From the IMG/VR virus record IMGVR_UViG_3300030108_002446, positions 1 to 36,905 of that record: a stretch of 36,905 nucleotides of DNA; one strand, 5' to 3'. The notes below the pieces were generated by a model that saw only the letters and a list, made by a program, of their open reading frames with translations, was not told where the DNA came from and ran no database searches. Below, one piece after another: positions 4,031-26,924 of this stretch. The stretch is from a virus. The stretch's first letter is position 1, and the number at the start of each line of letters is the position of its first letter. The position numbers were made by a program, and so were the translations under genes.

Positions 4031-4362
4031 TATATTTTATTCATATTTATTTTTATGTAATCCATAAAATTATTTATATGCCCTTCTGCTTTGTCTAAAT
4101 CATTTATAGTTAAATTTATATCGTGTGTATTTATATCCAGTTCTATTTTATCTAAACCAGATTTAGCAAATTGTTCATAAATATAATTAACTGCATCTTG
4201 CATTGATGACTTAGCAGATAATATATTTTGAATGTTTTGTTCTAAAGTTAAGTGATAAAGATTTATTATTTTTAAAACTTCATCACGAGATAGATTTTTA
4301 TCAAGTCTTTTATTTAAAAAATCATCCTGTCTTTTTTTATCTAAATTAATTATAGTACTCAT
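4030..4362 (-). CDS. First leftward early gene, unknown 110-aa protein
   Basis: The function is not recognised. It is an acidic, helical protein (LDKIELDINTHDINLTINDLDKAEG in the second half, quoted only to show the D/N/L pattern at about residues 70-94) with no membrane segment or metal motif. The start is ATG 4362, with AAGGGATTAAAAT before it. It opens the leftward operon just downstream of the divergent control region, so it should be among the earliest proteins made. Confidence 0.7.
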   Translation of the reverse strand: MSTIINLDKKRQDDFLNKRLDKNLSRDEVLKIINLYHLTLEQNIQNILSAKSSMQDAVNYIYEQFAKSGLDKIELDINTHDINLTINDLDKAEGHINNFMDYIKINMNKI

Positions 4363-4530
4363 ATTTTAATCCCTTTTTTTTTGTAATAATATTATATGTA
4401 ATGTGTAAAAGTATAAATTACAAGTGTATTATTATATAAATTATTAAAATAATATATGAAATAAATAATTTTTTATTGATTTAATTTTTAATAAAATATA
4501 AAAAAAACAGTACAGGAAAATATTTGCAAA
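4363..4530. promoter_or_regulatory. Divergent early control region
   Basis: This 168-bp, almost pure AT gap lies between the leftward and rightward early genes. On the minus strand CTTGTAA (~4417-4423) stands upstream of TATAAT-like DNA near 4390-4396, and the core TAAAAGTATAA (4406-4416), shared with the 1570-1580 control region, lies between. Rightward, TTGATT (4476-4481) precedes TATAAA (4497-4502) with a 15-base spacer. A perfect ATTATT-AA-AATAAT palindrome is at 4440-4453. Exact boxes are uncertain in such AT-rich DNA. Confidence 0.5.
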
Positions 4531-4845
4531 ATGTCAAAATATAAAAATAAATATGCCTTTTATAAGGGTAAAAGATTTGACAGTAAAAAAGAAGCAAATC
4601 GTTTTTTGGAACTAAGTTTGTTAGAGCAAGCAAAACAAATAAGTAATTTAAAATGCCAGGTTGCTTACCAACTTAAAGTAGATCAAGTTATTATTGGTAA
4701 GTATATATGTGATTTTGAATATGAAGAAAAAGGAAAAACAGTTACTGAAGATGTTAAGTCAGCTTTTACAAAAAAATTACCATTGTATAGATGGAAAAAA
4801 AAGCACTTCCAGGCGCAATTTGGTCGTGAGGTAAGAGAAACATGA
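4531..4845 (+). CDS. DUF1064 / PD-(D/E)xK nuclease-like protein
   Basis: The 104-residue protein fits the DUF1064 phage family: an N-terminal FDSKKEANRFLEL block (16-28) with Glu21, ISNLKCQ (37-43), then CDFEY with Asp61 and EDVKS with Asp74 and Lys76, the spacing of a PD-(D/E)xK endonuclease core, and a basic C-terminal KKKHFQAQFG. Members are thought to act as small resolvase-like or structure-specific nucleases. It is the first gene of the rightward replication operon; its TGA is followed by a 63-bp gap before the replication protein. The ribosome site is weak (AGGA about 14 bases upstream). Confidence 0.8.
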   Translation: MSKYKNKYAFYKGKRFDSKKEANRFLELSLLEQAKQISNLKCQVAYQLKVDQVIIGKYICDFEYEEKGKTVTEDVKSAFTKKLPLYRWKKKHFQAQFGREVRET

Positions 4846-4908: not shown

Positions 4909-5811
4909 ATGAGTGTAAAACATCTAAACTGGGCGTGGGATCAGCAAGTGAAAAATCCGACAACCAAACTAATATTAATGAAACTTGCAGACGGAGCAGA
5001 CGAAAGCAATCGAAGTTGGTACAGCCATAAAACATTAGCTATTAAATGCGAAACATCTATTTCCAGTGTAAGAAGGCATTTAAGTTATTTAAAAAAATTA
5101 AACTTAATAAGAATAGAACATAGGATTAGAACAGAAGGTATAATGAAGGGATCACAAACTTCTAATTACTATTACATTAATATCGATACGCCTGTTCAAA
5201 ATGAACACCCCCCCTGTTCACCAGTGAACACCCCCCCTGTTCATAGCTATGAACAACGAACCATTAATAAAGAACCATTAAAAGAACATATATATATAAA
5301 TGAGGAAAAAATGAATAAGGTTATAAGTGAAACTAAAGTAATAAATGTAAGACCAGAAGATATTATGTTTGACGAATGGTGGGAAAATGTTCCTTTCGAA
5401 ACGAATAAAAATGCTTGTAAATATTTATACAGAAAAGCATTACAAAGAGCAGAACATAAAGATCTATGTAAATCTGTAAGGGATTATTATGACTATTGTA
5501 TTAAAAGTGATAAAAAACGTACATACTGGATAAGACCACATAATTGGTTAAAAGGCGAATATTGGCTACAAAATATAAACGATGAAGAAAAAAAACCTTC
5601 TGAAATTGGTTTAATAAAAGCAAAAAAAGAAGAGTATGGTCATTATTATGCCTGGAGAAAAAGAGTTGAAGATTGGTTAGCAGATGGTTTTTGGTTAGAA
5701 AGAATTTGGGGAGAAAGACCAGATAATATAAAAACAAGTGTACCAGCAGAATTATTAAAGGAGTTTAAAATTGGCAAATACAAACAGTGTAGTAGTACAA
5801 AAGTTAGCTGA
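4909..5811 (+). CDS. Lambda-O-like replication initiation protein (winged helix)
   Basis: This probably binds the phage origin and recruits the host helicase. Residues ~18-75 form an HTH_36-type winged helix (LILMKLADGADESN, WYSHKTLA, SISSVRRHLSYLKKLNLI). A proline-rich linker (residues ~95-118, PVQNEHPPC... PVNTPPVH) is encoded by an inverted-repeat array at 5193-5255. The C-terminal domain (~155-235) has the pattern of phage replication proteins: FDEWWENVPFETNKNACKYLYRKAL, then YWIRPHNWLKGEYW. Iterons inside the initiator gene reproduce the lambda O/ori design. No phage polymerase, primase or helicase is visible, so it should load host enzymes. The start ATG 4909 has GGGAAAAAGAA upstream. 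Confidence 0.85.
   Translation: MSVKHLNWAWDQQVKNPTTKLILMKLADGADESNRSWYSHKTLAIKCETSISSVRRHLSYLKKLNLIRIEHRIRTEGIMKGSQTSNYYYINIDTPVQNEHPPCSPVNTPPVHSYEQRTINKEPLKEHIYINEEKMNKVISETKVINVRPEDIMFDEWWENVPFETNKNACKYLYRKALQRAEHKDLCKSVRDYYDYCIKSDKKRTYWIRPHNWLKGEYWLQNINDEEKKPSEIGLIKAKKEEYGHYYAWRKRVEDWLADGFWLERIWGERPDNIKTSVPAELLKEFKIGKYKQCSSTKVS
5193..5255. repeat. Iteron array, probable replication origin
   Basis: Six alternating half-sites of TGTTCA/TGAACA occur at 5193-5198, 5202-5207, 5215-5220, 5225-5230, 5238-5243 and 5250-5255. Two exact 19-bp units, TGAACACCCCCCCTGTTCA (5202-5220 and 5225-5243), start 23 bp apart. The C7 runs stand out in an AT-rich gene. To the right, 5258-5305 is AT-rich with two GAACCATTAA copies and an alternating TA stretch, a candidate unwinding element. 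The array lies inside the linker of the replication protein gene, as in lambda. Origin function is inferred from architecture. Confidence 0.7.
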
Positions 5812-6684: not shown

Positions 6685-8397
6685 ATGGGATTATTTAATT
6701 TAGACAGCAGTGATCAATACAGAGGTGCAATACTGCCTTTTAGAATTACGTCAGAAGGCGAAAGAAAGTTTGCAGCACCGTCAATGATTGTTGGTCTGTT
6801 AGATGAAATAATGGACGCTGGTGAAACAATAAATCTAGGAATGACAGGGCAGTTAGATCCAGGTGACCCAGACACAATAGACCGTGTTGTAAGATTAGGT
6901 ATGCTGCAAGGTGGTGGTGGATATTTAGGTGGACGCTTTTACAATCCTGGTGGTGCGACATTGGGAATATTTGCTGGCGCTGATGCAAAAACAGCAAATA
7001 AAGAATTAATGAAAGAACCACTTGAAGAAAGTGTTAAAAACTTATACGAAAATCCTTTAGATCTGGCAAGACGTATGGAATTACGTCCAGATAATAAAAT
7101 GTTATTGAAAAAAGCTGAAATACGTCCAGATCAAGTTTTCAAAGAAACTGGTGTATTTACGTTAGGTGACGGCAGACTTAGATTTGAAATAGATGACCGT
7201 AACATGAAAAATGCACTAGACGATGAAACTTTAAAAAAAATATTTGAAAGTAATTACGGTACTGAAGTTATTAAAAGTCATCCATTGGATGCAGTTCCAA
7301 CAATAAAACCAAATTTGAATACACCCATATACAACATTGAAGAAGTTATAAGTCACCCAGAATTATTTAAAGCATATCCACAACTTAAAAACATAGAAGT
7401 GCAATTTGTAAATGACCCTACAAGGGGATCTAGTTTTGATCCAAACAAAAATTTAATGAAAATAAATGTGTCTAATTTACCGTCACATGGTCTTTTATCA
7501 AATAATGGAATATTTATACAAAGGGAGTTTGACGATTTTAAAGATGAAATTTTAGATGTAGCTGTACACGAATTGCAACATGCCGTGGATGTTATAGAGC
7601 AAATGCCTAGTCCTGGTGGCAACACTCGTAAAGACATTGTTGAGCCATTACTAAGAAAAGTTGAACAACCAGCTGCTGGCTACAGGGATGAAAAAATTGC
7701 TGCCTACAATTCATTTAAACAAAACTTTGAAGAATTAGAAAATCTTTCTACTGCAAAATTAATAAAACAATATATAGAGAAATCAAAAAAATCTAATATA
7801 AAACCAAGTGAACTAAGAAAACAAGGTGAGTTTTACAGATACTCAGATGATATAAGAAGTGAATTAGGAGCGCCACCCAAAAACCCTGGCGCAGAGCGTG
7901 ACGCTTATTATCAAGAAGCATTTTTTAGACTAGCAAATATGATAGCAAGAGATAATCCAGGCGCACGTAGTCTCCTTAACATGGAAACCAAAAATATAGA
8001 CGCTAACATTAGACGTTTACAAAAAGCAGTAAATGCTGACCGTCCTGGCTATGAAGAATTTCTTGATGCAGACGCATATTATAATGCGATTAGAAAAAAC
8101 TTTATAAAGCCAGACATAGACAATTCGTTAAAAAACTTTGACATTTACCAAAACATATTAGGTGAACAAGTAGCACGAGCAGTACAAGCCAGAAGAGGTG
8201 CAACAAGAGTTCCAGGTTTATTTGGTTTAGATAAAAAATTATTTGAAAGACCAGAAAATCCATTAGATACATTTACAAAGTATTATGAGCCTGGTAGTCG
8301 CATGGAAAATATGCTTAAAAGAAATCCACTTAATAGAGTAGGATTAGAGAATATGGAAAATCCACCAGTATTAGGATTAACTGGAGCATTTAAATAG
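6685..8397 (+). CDS. Large first-late protein with zincin-like HExxH motif
   Basis: This 570-residue protein carries VAVHELQHAVD with His295-Glu296-x-x-His299, the zinc-binding and catalytic motif of gluzincin-type metallopeptidases. It follows a beta-rich stretch (IEVQFVNDP ... MKINVSN), as in domains found in large phage polyvalent proteins. The N-terminal ~100 residues are glycine-rich and the C-terminal half is helical and charged. It lies just upstream of the terminase genes, so it is probably a virion or maturation protein; a head protease or an injected host-attacking peptidase are both possible. ATG 6685 has AGGA at good spacing. The third zinc ligand is not obvious. Confidence 0.6.
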   Translation: MGLFNLDSSDQYRGAILPFRITSEGERKFAAPSMIVGLLDEIMDAGETINLGMTGQLDPGDPDTIDRVVRLGMLQGGGGYLGGRFYNPGGATLGIFAGADAKTANKELMKEPLEESVKNLYENPLDLARRMELRPDNKMLLKKAEIRPDQVFKETGVFTLGDGRLRFEIDDRNMKNALDDETLKKIFESNYGTEVIKSHPLDAVPTIKPNLNTPIYNIEEVISHPELFKAYPQLKNIEVQFVNDPTRGSSFDPNKNLMKINVSNLPSHGLLSNNGIFIQREFDDFKDEILDVAVHELQHAVDVIEQMPSPGGNTRKDIVEPLLRKVEQPAAGYRDEKIAAYNSFKQNFEELENLSTAKLIKQYIEKSKKSNIKPSELRKQGEFYRYSDDIRSELGAPPKNPGAERDAYYQEAFFRLANMIARDNPGARSLLNMETKNIDANIRRLQKAVNADRPGYEEFLDADAYYNAIRKNFIKPDIDNSLKNFDIYQNILGEQVARAVQARRGATRVPGLFGLDKKLFERPENPLDTFTKYYEPGSRMENMLKRNPLNRVGLENMENPPVLGLTGAFK

Positions 8398-23923: not shown

Positions 23924-25389
23924 TGGCAAGAAAATTATTTTCTATACGTGGATCTGAAATAACCGAAAGTGGCATATTTAAATCTACACATGCCCTGGAC
24001 GCACCATTATGGAGAGATGGTGTAAATGTCATATTTAAAAACGGTGGCGCACAAAAAATAGGTGGAAGTACACAACTAGCTTCACAAAGTGTGACATCAC
24101 CAGTTAGAGGTGCAGAAGCATATCAATTAAGTGATAATATACAAAGATTATTTTTTGGCACTACAGATAAATTATACATGTATGTACCTGGATCTGGCGT
24201 TACCCAGGAAGGCACTGGTTACAGTGGCAATGAACACGAAGGCGCTACAAGTATTGCAACAACTTGGTCGTTTACTTCATTTGGTGACATTGTTATAGCT
24301 ACTAATGGAACGTCAGCACCACAAATTTGGAAACTAACAACTGATGCTTTTGCAGCATTGTCTAGTGAAACAGGGGCAACAGGCGTACCAAGTACAGCAG
24401 AAATAGTTATGCGTATTAGAGGGCATATACTGTTTTTTAATACAAATGCTGGTGACAATACAGTGGCATTTAGTGACGTAGAAAATCCAGCTATATATAC
24501 AGCGTCAAGTACAAATGCTGCTGGATCTTTAGTTGTAAGAGATATGAATGGCGCAATAAAAGCAGCTGTGCCATTTAAAGATGGTGCGCTTGTTTTAGGC
24601 AAAGACCAGGCATTTATTGTAAAACATGTTGGATCACCATTCTTTTTTACATACAAACAAGTTACAACAGGAATAGGTGCTGTTTCAAAAGCAAGTGTAA
24701 TAGTTGTTAATAATATTGCATATGGTATGGGTCAAAGAGGTATATGGCAGTTTGATGGATTAAATTACAGATATATTGATACACCAGCATTACAAGAATT
24801 TATCCAGGCAAATTGGGAAGACAGTGAATTATCAAAAGTGTGCGCTACATATGATTTAGAAAATAAAACAATTTATTGGTTTATTCCTACATCTAACAAT
24901 GCAGAAAACAGCATAGGTGTTGTTTACAATGTTCAAAACGGTAGCTGGTCAAGAATAGATTTTGGACGCACTGCTGCTGTGCCTTATATGGGAGCATTTA
25001 AACATCCATATATGTTTGCTCATTCTAGTAGTACAGCAAGTCTTAGATCTCATAATACTGAAGTCAATGATAATGGATCTGCATTGACAGCAACACTTAC
25101 ATCTAAACCATTAGATTTTAATGAAGCTGGTGCATTTAAAAGCATTACATTTGTATCTTTGCAAATGAGAACACTTACAGGAACAGTCAATGTAAGATTG
25201 GGAACACAAAACAATTTAGATGACAGTGTTTCATTTTCGTCTTCTACTGCCCTGGATGATGGTTTTGAAAAAATAAATGTACGTCAAACTGGTCGTTTTA
25301 TAACATTAGAAGTATCAAGTTCAGCAACTGGCGCAAATTGGGCAATGACAGGATTTGATATGTATGGTGTACCAGCTGGGAGAATATGA
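23923..25389 (+). CDS. Tail tube/nozzle-like beta-propeller protein
   Basis: The 488-residue beta-rich protein resembles podovirus tail nozzle or P22 gp10-like proteins. It begins with WRDGVNVIFKNGGAQKIGG and has repeats of blade-like strands (GAEAYQLSDNIQRLFFGTTDKLYMY, FGDIVIATNGTSAPQIWKL, MRIRGHILFFNTN, GIWQFDGLNYRYID, GVVYNVQNGSWSRIDF). The family pattern of 'dispatch' of such blades and the place after adaptor and fibre-joining genes support a tail-tube role. The C-terminal part (RLGTQNNLDDSVSFSSST) is a separate beta-domain. Confidence 0.75.
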   Translation: MARKLFSIRGSEITESGIFKSTHALDAPLWRDGVNVIFKNGGAQKIGGSTQLASQSVTSPVRGAEAYQLSDNIQRLFFGTTDKLYMYVPGSGVTQEGTGYSGNEHEGATSIATTWSFTSFGDIVIATNGTSAPQIWKLTTDAFAALSSETGATGVPSTAEIVMRIRGHILFFNTNAGDNTVAFSDVENPAIYTASSTNAAGSLVVRDMNGAIKAAVPFKDGALVLGKDQAFIVKHVGSPFFFTYKQVTTGIGAVSKASVIVVNNIAYGMGQRGIWQFDGLNYRYIDTPALQEFIQANWEDSELSKVCATYDLENKTIYWFIPTSNNAENSIGVVYNVQNGSWSRIDFGRTAAVPYMGAFKHPYMFAHSSSTASLRSHNTEVNDNGSALTATLTSKPLDFNEAGAFKSITFVSLQMRTLTGTVNVRLGTQNNLDDSVSFSSSTALDDGFEKINVRQTGRFITLEVSSSATGANWAMTGFDMYGVPAGRI

Positions 25390-26924
25390 TGTCTTTACTT
25401 CCTCAACGTGGACAAGATGAAGAAGCAAACGAATATTTAGACAGAATATTACCAGAACTAAATGAAATATTAGAAAATTCATTATCTGGAACTGCATTTG
25501 TAAAAGATGGTAAAGTATTTGTTAAAGTAGTATCCCCACATAATGCTGCTGACAAAGACCTGGAATTAGGCAAAATGCTTACAAACGCTGCTAATATTGT
25601 AACAATAGACACTGAAAAGTTGGAAGACGCTGCAATTACAACAGCAAAATTAGCTAACGGTAGTTTAGATCTTACAAAATTTGCTAGTGATATAGAGCCA
25701 GTTCAAGTGGTGTCTAACTTGAATAGCATAAGTTCACCCTCTCAAGGGCAAGTTGCTTTTTTAACATCTGACAACAGTTTATACAGATACACTGGTGGCG
25801 CTTGGACAAAAGCTGTTCCAACATCTGATTTGACTGGTACAATAGGCAGCACTCAAATTGCTGACAATGCCGTTACATCAAATAAAATTGTATCAAACGC
25901 TATTACGGCAACTAAAATTTCTGACAATGCCATAACAGCTGGTAAAATAGCCTCAAATGCCGTTACGGCTGGTTCAATAGCCTCAAATGCTATTATCGCT
26001 GGTAAAATAGCTGCTGGTGCAATAGGCACTAATGAGTTAGCAGCAAATGCAATTACAAGCGCAAAACTGGCAACAAATGAATTAATTACATCGTCTGCAC
26101 AAATAGGCGATGCAACAATACTAACAGCTGCTATAGGTGACGCACAAATTACAAACGCAAAAGTTAATGATTTAGCTGCAAATAAAATAACTGCTGGAAC
26201 TTTAGCAGCTGATCGTATAGGTGCAAATAGTATTACTTCTGGTAAAATAGCAGCTGACGCAATAACCACTGACAAAATTGCAGCCAATGCAATTACAGCT
26301 AGTGAAATTGCTACAGATGCAGTGACAACTGATAAACTTGCAGCAAATAGTATTACAAGTGCAAAATTAGCTACTAGTAATCTTATAACTCAGTCAGCAC
26401 AAATAAATGATGGCATTATTACTAATGCTAAAATTAATGATTTAGACGCAAGCAAAATTAATGCTGGTATTATTAATTCAAGCAGAATAAACAGTGGCTC
26501 TATTGCAGCTGGTATAATTACTACTAATGGCATTGCATTAAATGCTGTTACGCAAGTATTTGTTATGGACACTGGTTTAGGAACTGGTGTACCAGCTTCA
26601 CTAAGTTGGTCACCAGCTGGCAACAGCAGCATCTATTACAATGCTTTTATAATTGCTGAATTTCAATTTACTGGCAGTACAAATTCTGGAGCGTCAAGTT
26701 CAATGAGTGTCATTACTACTGGTGGAAATATTCAAAATTGGACTAAAAATTTTGGAATTACAGGCATTACAGCAGCTAACAGTTTTACCTTGGTGACAGC
26801 TTTTGCAAATAATAATGCATTTTTAGGTTTGCAAGGTGGCTATACATACAGTACTGCATTTCAAGGTAATACAAACCTCGGAGCAATAAATGTTGAAGCA
26901 GTTGTTTTTATAAGGGCAAGGTAA
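25386..26924 (+). CDS. Tail fibre protein 4 with long repeat shaft
   Basis: This is a 512-residue fibre. The N-terminal ~120 residues probably anchor it; residues ~150-385 are a long series of imperfect units of about 10-17 residues such as NAITAGKIASNAVTAGSIAS and AADAITTDKIAANAITAS, which build a thin trimeric shaft. A C-terminal beta-domain (from ~385) may bind the receptor. It overlaps the nozzle-like gene by four bases (ATGA). The repeats are clear at DNA level too and cause long chance open frames on the opposite strand. A CCTGG site occurs only in the anchor part (25559). Confidence 0.85.
   Translation: MMSLLPQRGQDEEANEYLDRILPELNEILENSLSGTAFVKDGKVFVKVVSPHNAADKDLELGKMLTNAANIVTIDTEKLEDAAITTAKLANGSLDLTKFASDIEPVQVVSNLNSISSPSQGQVAFLTSDNSLYRYTGGAWTKAVPTSDLTGTIGSTQIADNAVTSNKIVSNAITATKISDNAITAGKIASNAVTAGSIASNAIIAGKIAAGAIGTNELAANAITSAKLATNELITSSAQIGDATILTAAIGDAQITNAKVNDLAANKITAGTLAADRIGANSITSGKIAADAITTDKIAANAITASEIATDAVTTDKLAANSITSAKLATSNLITQSAQINDGIITNAKINDLDASKINAGIINSSRINSGSIAAGIITTNGIALNAVTQVFVMDTGLGTGVPASLSWSPAGNSSIYYNAFIIAEFQFTGSTNSGASSSMSVITTGGNIQNWTKNFGITGITAANSFTLVTAFANNNAFLGLQGGYTYSTAFQGNTNLGAINVEAVVFIRAR

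Follow-up and report, generated by a model that had tools for sequence, protein, structure and literature searches.

A putative lambda-type replication origin inside the HTH_36 initiator gene of an IMG/VR phage

We found an array of short inverted repeats within the replication initiator gene of a phage, and conclude that this array is probably (at roughly 0.86) the replication origin of that phage, of the lambda type, in which the iterons would be bound by the cognate winged helix of the initiator and the adjacent AT-rich DNA would melt. The phage corresponds to the viral IMG/VR record IMGVR_UViG_3300030108_002446, and its whole stretch of 36,905 bp is hereafter called the window. The initiator gene (4909-5811, plus strand) codes for a protein of 300 aa that comprises an HTH_36 winged helix, a disordered linker and a helical C-terminal domain.

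Iteron array inside the initiator gene

A half-site scan delimited the array to positions 5193 to 5255 and resolved it into six alternating TGTTCA/TGAACA half-sites at 5193 (+), 5202 (-), 5215 (+), 5225 (-), 5238 (+), and 5250 (-), in agreement with the six alternating half-sites reported in a sequence-only reading of this DNA. Two full iterons, each a perfect 19-bp inverted repeat with 6-bp arms and a C7 spacer, occupy 5202-5220 (copy 1, TGAACACCCCCCCTGTTCA) and 5225-5243 (copy 2, identical), the second starting 23 bp after the first and lying in another codon frame; these two exact copies had also been noted before. On either side stand a left outer half-site TGTTCA (5193-5198, plus strand) and a right outer half-site TGAACA (5250-5255, minus strand). 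Chance matches to the 19-mer, even with three mismatches, were absent from 100 shuffles, and the only two C7 runs of the window are both found inside the iteron copies. When 105-bp segments were ranked by their direct and inverted repeat content, the array stretch came first of 2454, and the repeat cover of the window linker (0.63 direct, 0.42 inverted) was matched by none of 100 shuffles. The array encodes approximately residues 95 to 116, between the winged helix and the C-terminal domain, as had been proposed. Its DNA thus lies in a disordered linker, and is therefore placed where the protein can tolerate it.

The DNA that follows the array (5258-5305) contains about 80% A+T in 40-bp windows, moderately richer than the whole window at roughly two thirds, and the AT-rich stretch described earlier at this place was thereby recovered. 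By its likeness to the lambda arrangement (PMC5043065), this tract would be a candidate DNA unwinding element. It also carries two plus-strand copies of a second element, GAACCATTAA, which belongs to a family motif AACCA[GT]T[CA]A. Box 1 is located at 5258-5267 and box 2 at 5272-5281, a 14-bp offset that places the two in different frames.

Initiator protein and gene neighborhood

The initiator protein matched Pfam HTH_36 over residues 16-67 (4954-5109, plus strand) with an E-value of 5e-7 and 29.8 bits, against a curated cut-off of 25, and it matched several PHROG families named replication initiation or O-like, down to 2e-20. In an AlphaFold model built from 23 related sequences, residues 1-90 formed a winged helix with a pLDDT of about 95 over most of its length, while residues 98-124 were disordered (pLDDT of about 43). 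The recognition helix of the model covers residues 51-63, including R55, R56, and S59, and is encoded at 5059-5097 (plus strand); it is the part with the strongest iteron association (see below). The helical C-terminal domain (residues 132-215, encoded at 5302-5553 on the plus strand) is presumed to contact a helicase or its loader. Solved-structure matches were mostly transcription regulators. The best of them was weak (4pql, E=0.015), is listed as "N-Terminal domain of DNA binding protein", and is what we take to be the domain of a RepA_N plasmid initiator, which would fit; Pfam gave no match to a RepA_N domain in the initiator.

Pfam and PHROG scans of most ORFs recognized no polymerase, primase, or helicase in the window, in agreement with the earlier observation that no phage polymerase or helicase was visible. 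A single-strand DNA-binding protein is encoded by the same phage (2675-3232, minus strand; Pfam SSB, 1e-15). The same databases revealed no lambda P-like loader beside the initiator gene, and the two genes that follow it had no matches save a weak one to DUF6456. GC skew switches at approximately 4.4-4.5 kb and offers no independent evidence for an origin, because gene direction flips at the same place. Immediately upstream of the initiator gene, 4531-4845 encodes a DUF1064 protein (PHROG: Holliday junction resolvase), and the divergent intergenic region at 4362-4530, very AT-rich and repeat-rich, likely contains promoters. The gene for a 570-aa protein that bears an LPD23 domain ("large polyvalent protein"; 6685-8397) comes after the replication block and before the terminase. 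At the two contig ends (1-500 and 36224-36892, both on the minus strand), portions of a cytosine DNA methyltransferase overlap, with about 50 near-identical residues, which suggests either that the genome is circularly permuted and its overlap imperfect, or that there are two related genes. Of note, tandem repeats of 30/60 bp at 25851-26011, inside a 512-aa ORF (25386-26924), have periods that are multiples of three, and are therefore probably repeats at the protein level.

Constraint at the DNA level

Since the 23-bp step between the iteron copies is not a multiple of three, the identical 19-mers are read in different frames and are translated as NEHPPCSP in one case and as VNTPPVH in the other. 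The difference in codon frame therefore indicates that selection acts on the DNA. Further evidence came from a relative (L004) with a terminase approximately 96% identical and an initiator 59% identical to those of the window. It keeps the iteron unit in three C7 copies, 24 and 23 bp apart, compared with two copies in the window. At sites that encode the same amino acid in both phages, the same codon was used in 18 of 20 cases within the iteron segment, compared with 77 of 131 outside it (P=0.005). The constraint on DNA that the sequence-only reading had implied is thus borne out by the frame difference and by synonymous conservation.

A proline-rich linker under amino-acid selection could also give rise to repeats. 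Indeed, 79 of the 97 exact repeat pairs in the linkers of the family described below are in frame, so that some linkers repeat at the protein level too. For the window, such an origin of the array is extremely unlikely: besides the two different peptides and the conserved synonymous sites, its arms are palindromic, and the linker is predicted to be disordered, with residues that vary between relatives. We also considered RNA hairpins in the initiator mRNA that would control translation or the end of the transcript, as the window RNA folds better than its shuffles (z=-5.8). However, any DNA palindrome yields folding, and the relative with three C7 copies stayed near its shuffles (z=-1.2) despite its kept iterons. 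Hairpins were rejected on these grounds as very unlikely, and the reading of the array as a DNA origin was retained.

Linker repeats in related initiators

No viral relative came from a protein search that used the window initiator by itself; relatives were located by terminase, DNA-pattern, and alignment searches. We compared 44 initiators with mutually dissimilar linkers, belonging to named phages, IMG/VR contigs, and one bacterial genome, and scored repeat cover on a 35-codon linker against codon shuffles. Direct-repeat cover averaged 0.51 (0.033 in codon shuffles) and inverted-repeat cover 0.205 (0.035 in codon shuffles), and the sequence before and after the linker was near control. Thirteen of the 44 initiators had repeats of 10 bp or longer that fall in a different frame, with 0.14 expected. 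As a positive control, lambda O gave 0.50 direct and 0.25 inverted cover at its annotated iterons. It had been anticipated that an alignment across related phages would show palindromes kept in a varying linker; once this check was run, relatives were seen to keep linker arrays, with direct repeats individually significant in 40 of 44 linkers, and to vary in linker length, residues, and half-sites.

The half-sites differ by phage and include GAACA, TGTAGGC, TATGCC, GTGACA, GGGGCAG, and GTGCA, among others. C/G runs of at least 4 nucleotides reached 2.5 per 100 bp in linkers, compared with 0.4 elsewhere and 1.5 in shuffles, and were flanked by inverted arms in 34 of 116 cases in linkers against 2 of 106 elsewhere. 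As C/G-run spacers are found family-wide, the C7 core represents a local version of a family rule. The core that was viewed earlier as an unfamiliar iteron is thus one form of a spacer common in the family. Furthermore, AACCA[GT]T[CA]A boxes follow the array in 34 of the 44 initiators, including that of the window, and at least two copies, typically 17 bp apart and out of frame, are carried by 24 of the 44 genes. In linkers, downstream of the wing, they reached a density of 7.7 per kb, compared with 0.18 per kb outside.

In the viral collection, the exact 17-bp core GAACACCCCCCCTGTTC was found in two viral contigs besides the window, both times in the linker of an HTH_36-type initiator, and one of the two (L010) is a GC-rich, distant phage. 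Looser matches to the core in initiator linkers include L097 and L144. Together with L010, these loci show a recurrence of the iteron unit in distant phages and in a bacterial genome, at the corresponding position of the initiator gene. A recent tandem duplication by slippage, devoid of function, would account for two exact copies 23 bp apart and for a copy number that varies between the window (2) and L004 (3), but this recurrence, as well as the covariation of the arms with the recognition helix (see below), leaves it a virtually negligible probability next to an origin. A looser pattern with 1-3 free spacer bases returned 108 viral and at least 117 genomic stretches, few of them in initiators; as these matches are mostly due to chance, they were used solely for finding L058, L097, L034/L089, and L144. 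No stretch of an all-family alignment was conserved enough for a scan of the collection.

Several loci deserve separate mention. The exact GAACACCCCCCCTGTTC is also present on the minus strand of L221 at 3614, outside a recognized initiator gene, and a second GAACACCCCC lies close to it. In the linker of L058, inverted half-sites of two kinds, GAACA and TGCGCT, alternate, as if two specificities shared one origin. The linkers of L340 and L341, near relatives of Vibrio phage 1.110.O, are unequal in their number of GAGGTGACAGGTTGTCA units (approximately four against two), and this difference in copy number indicates that arrays grow and shrink. Finally, L344 and L345 combine an L010-like C-terminal domain with a different, lambda-O-looking N-terminal domain and their own GACTC/AGTC repeats, and L344 also has a G7 run. 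These two loci represent an apparent module swap, suggesting that the DNA-binding domain and the origin move as a unit, as has been reported for pPR9 (PMC5703833).

Recognition helix and half-sites

The similarity of linker 5-mers was compared with that of the helix (residues 48-56) and of the rest of the domain by partial Mantel tests. Half-site similarity tracked the recognition helix (partial r 0.51, p=0.001) but did not track the remainder of the domain, and the partial r was 0.485 after dropping the loci found by DNA pattern. A sliding 9-residue test along the domain reached its maximum on the recognition helix, and the best single column for iteron association was position 55 (R55 in the window). 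Between domains at least 75% identical outside the helix window, similar helices went with an iteron similarity of 0.52 and dissimilar helices with one of 0.15. The nearest neighbor by helix barely outperformed the nearest neighbor by the rest of the domain (0.504 vs 0.486), a comparison less informative than the matched-band and partial tests. These permutation tests, from which shared ancestry was partly removed, support, on statistical grounds, binding of the winged helix to the repeats of the gene that encodes it, and suggest that the recognition helix and these repeats change together.

Sites bound by the protein of the same gene would suit an operator too, and winged helices are common repressor folds, as also reflected in the regulators among the solved-structure matches. 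The array could then serve mainly for the winged helix to repress or pace its own gene, with replication starting elsewhere. This is unlikely, given that the array lies approximately 285 bp inside the gene, downstream of its start and away from the promoter, that it occupies the same place in the initiators of many phages, as in the proven lambda origin, and that the AT-rich tract and the second conserved box come after it. We therefore favor a replication origin.

Proposed mechanism and implications

In the mechanism that we propose for this origin, dimers of the N-terminal HTH_36 winged helix would occupy the 19-bp iterons that lie midway along the gene encoding it. With iterons about two helical turns apart, several such dimers would line up next to one another, bend the DNA, and open the AT-rich tract, possibly aided by the GAACCATTAA boxes. 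The C-terminal domain could then bring in the host replicative helicase, either directly or via a loader. As suggested in the sequence-only reading, the array might also be the sole point at which host replication gains entry.

More broadly, we give even odds to the idea that HTH_36 phage initiators form a large self-labeled class, which would carry its own sites in the gene, with arms that flank a shared C/G-run spacer and are read by position 55, together with 52, 56, and 59, and with a second box that serves a common step. If this is true, the winged helix and its iterons are exchanged between phages as a single unit that determines replication specificity, and the recognition code can be read straight from sequence databases. 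Because reader and site are found together in each gene, the family offers ready-made data on a recognition code of winged helices. Origins could also be annotated from sequence alone in many uncultured phages. In the literature searched, which included few subscription journals, we found no paper in which internal origins are described as common to HTH_36 phage initiators at large.

Relation to lambda and to other initiators

An origin placed within its initiator gene is textbook knowledge that is usually illustrated by a single phage, lambda. The same layout is now seen in a different DNA-binding family, one that is widespread and has an iteron design of its own, namely variable arms, a C/G-run spacer, and a second box. 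In lambda, dimers of O bind inverted repeats of 19 bp and open the AT-rich region of 40 bp beside them, and the origin lies within the initiator gene, between the DNA-binding and C-terminal domains (PMC5043065, PMC7466680), as does the array of the window. Lambda iterons are inverted repeats of 18-19 bp, 20-24 bp apart and partly out of frame, to be compared with 19 bp and 23 bp in the window, and in both cases an AT-rich tract adjoins them. However, lambda has four iterons with TCCCTC-type arms, whereas the window has two full iterons plus outer half-sites, with TGAACA arms and a C7 core. Unlike lambda, the window carries GAACCATTAA boxes, and no P gene was recognized in it. Moreover, lambda O belongs to Phage_rep_O (PF04492, 6e-36), whereas the window protein matched HTH_36 only, and a profile of its relatives did not match lambda O. 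PHROGs 345, 678, and 391 match both proteins, and a distant or modular kinship between them is likely. The lambda-like character first attributed to this locus therefore holds for the layout, the iterons, and the AT-rich tract, but does not extend to the domain: the window initiator would work like lambda O, yet it falls outside that family by its DNA-binding domain, which is HTH_36 and not Phage_rep_O.

Among plasmids, pSK41 Rep of the RepA_N group resembles the window initiator, as it comprises a winged helix and a dispensable linker and has its origin boxes midway along rep (PMC5703833). In the chimeric Rep of pPR9, a block of about 500 bp comprising the DNA-binding domain and the origin is replaced by an HTH_36 version, and this Rep region replicates autonomously (PMC5703833). 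These are plasmids of Firmicutes, the C-terminal domain of pSK41 Rep binds the host primase, and the window protein gave no RepA_N match in Pfam. Closer counterparts are the HTH_36 O-like initiators of phages, for example those of Pectobacterium phage ZF40, SfV, Klebsiella RAH1, and Vibrio D59, with the same winged-helix family and a repeat-bearing linker. Most such initiators share C/G-run spacers and AACCA[GT]T[CA]A boxes with the window. Their C-terminal domains differ, as do their half-sites, which include TGTGC, TATGCC, TGTAGGC, GTGACA, and GGGGCAG, and the window is more AT-rich than most of them. The window protein is thus best classified among the HTH_36 O-like phage initiators, with a putative origin inside its gene.
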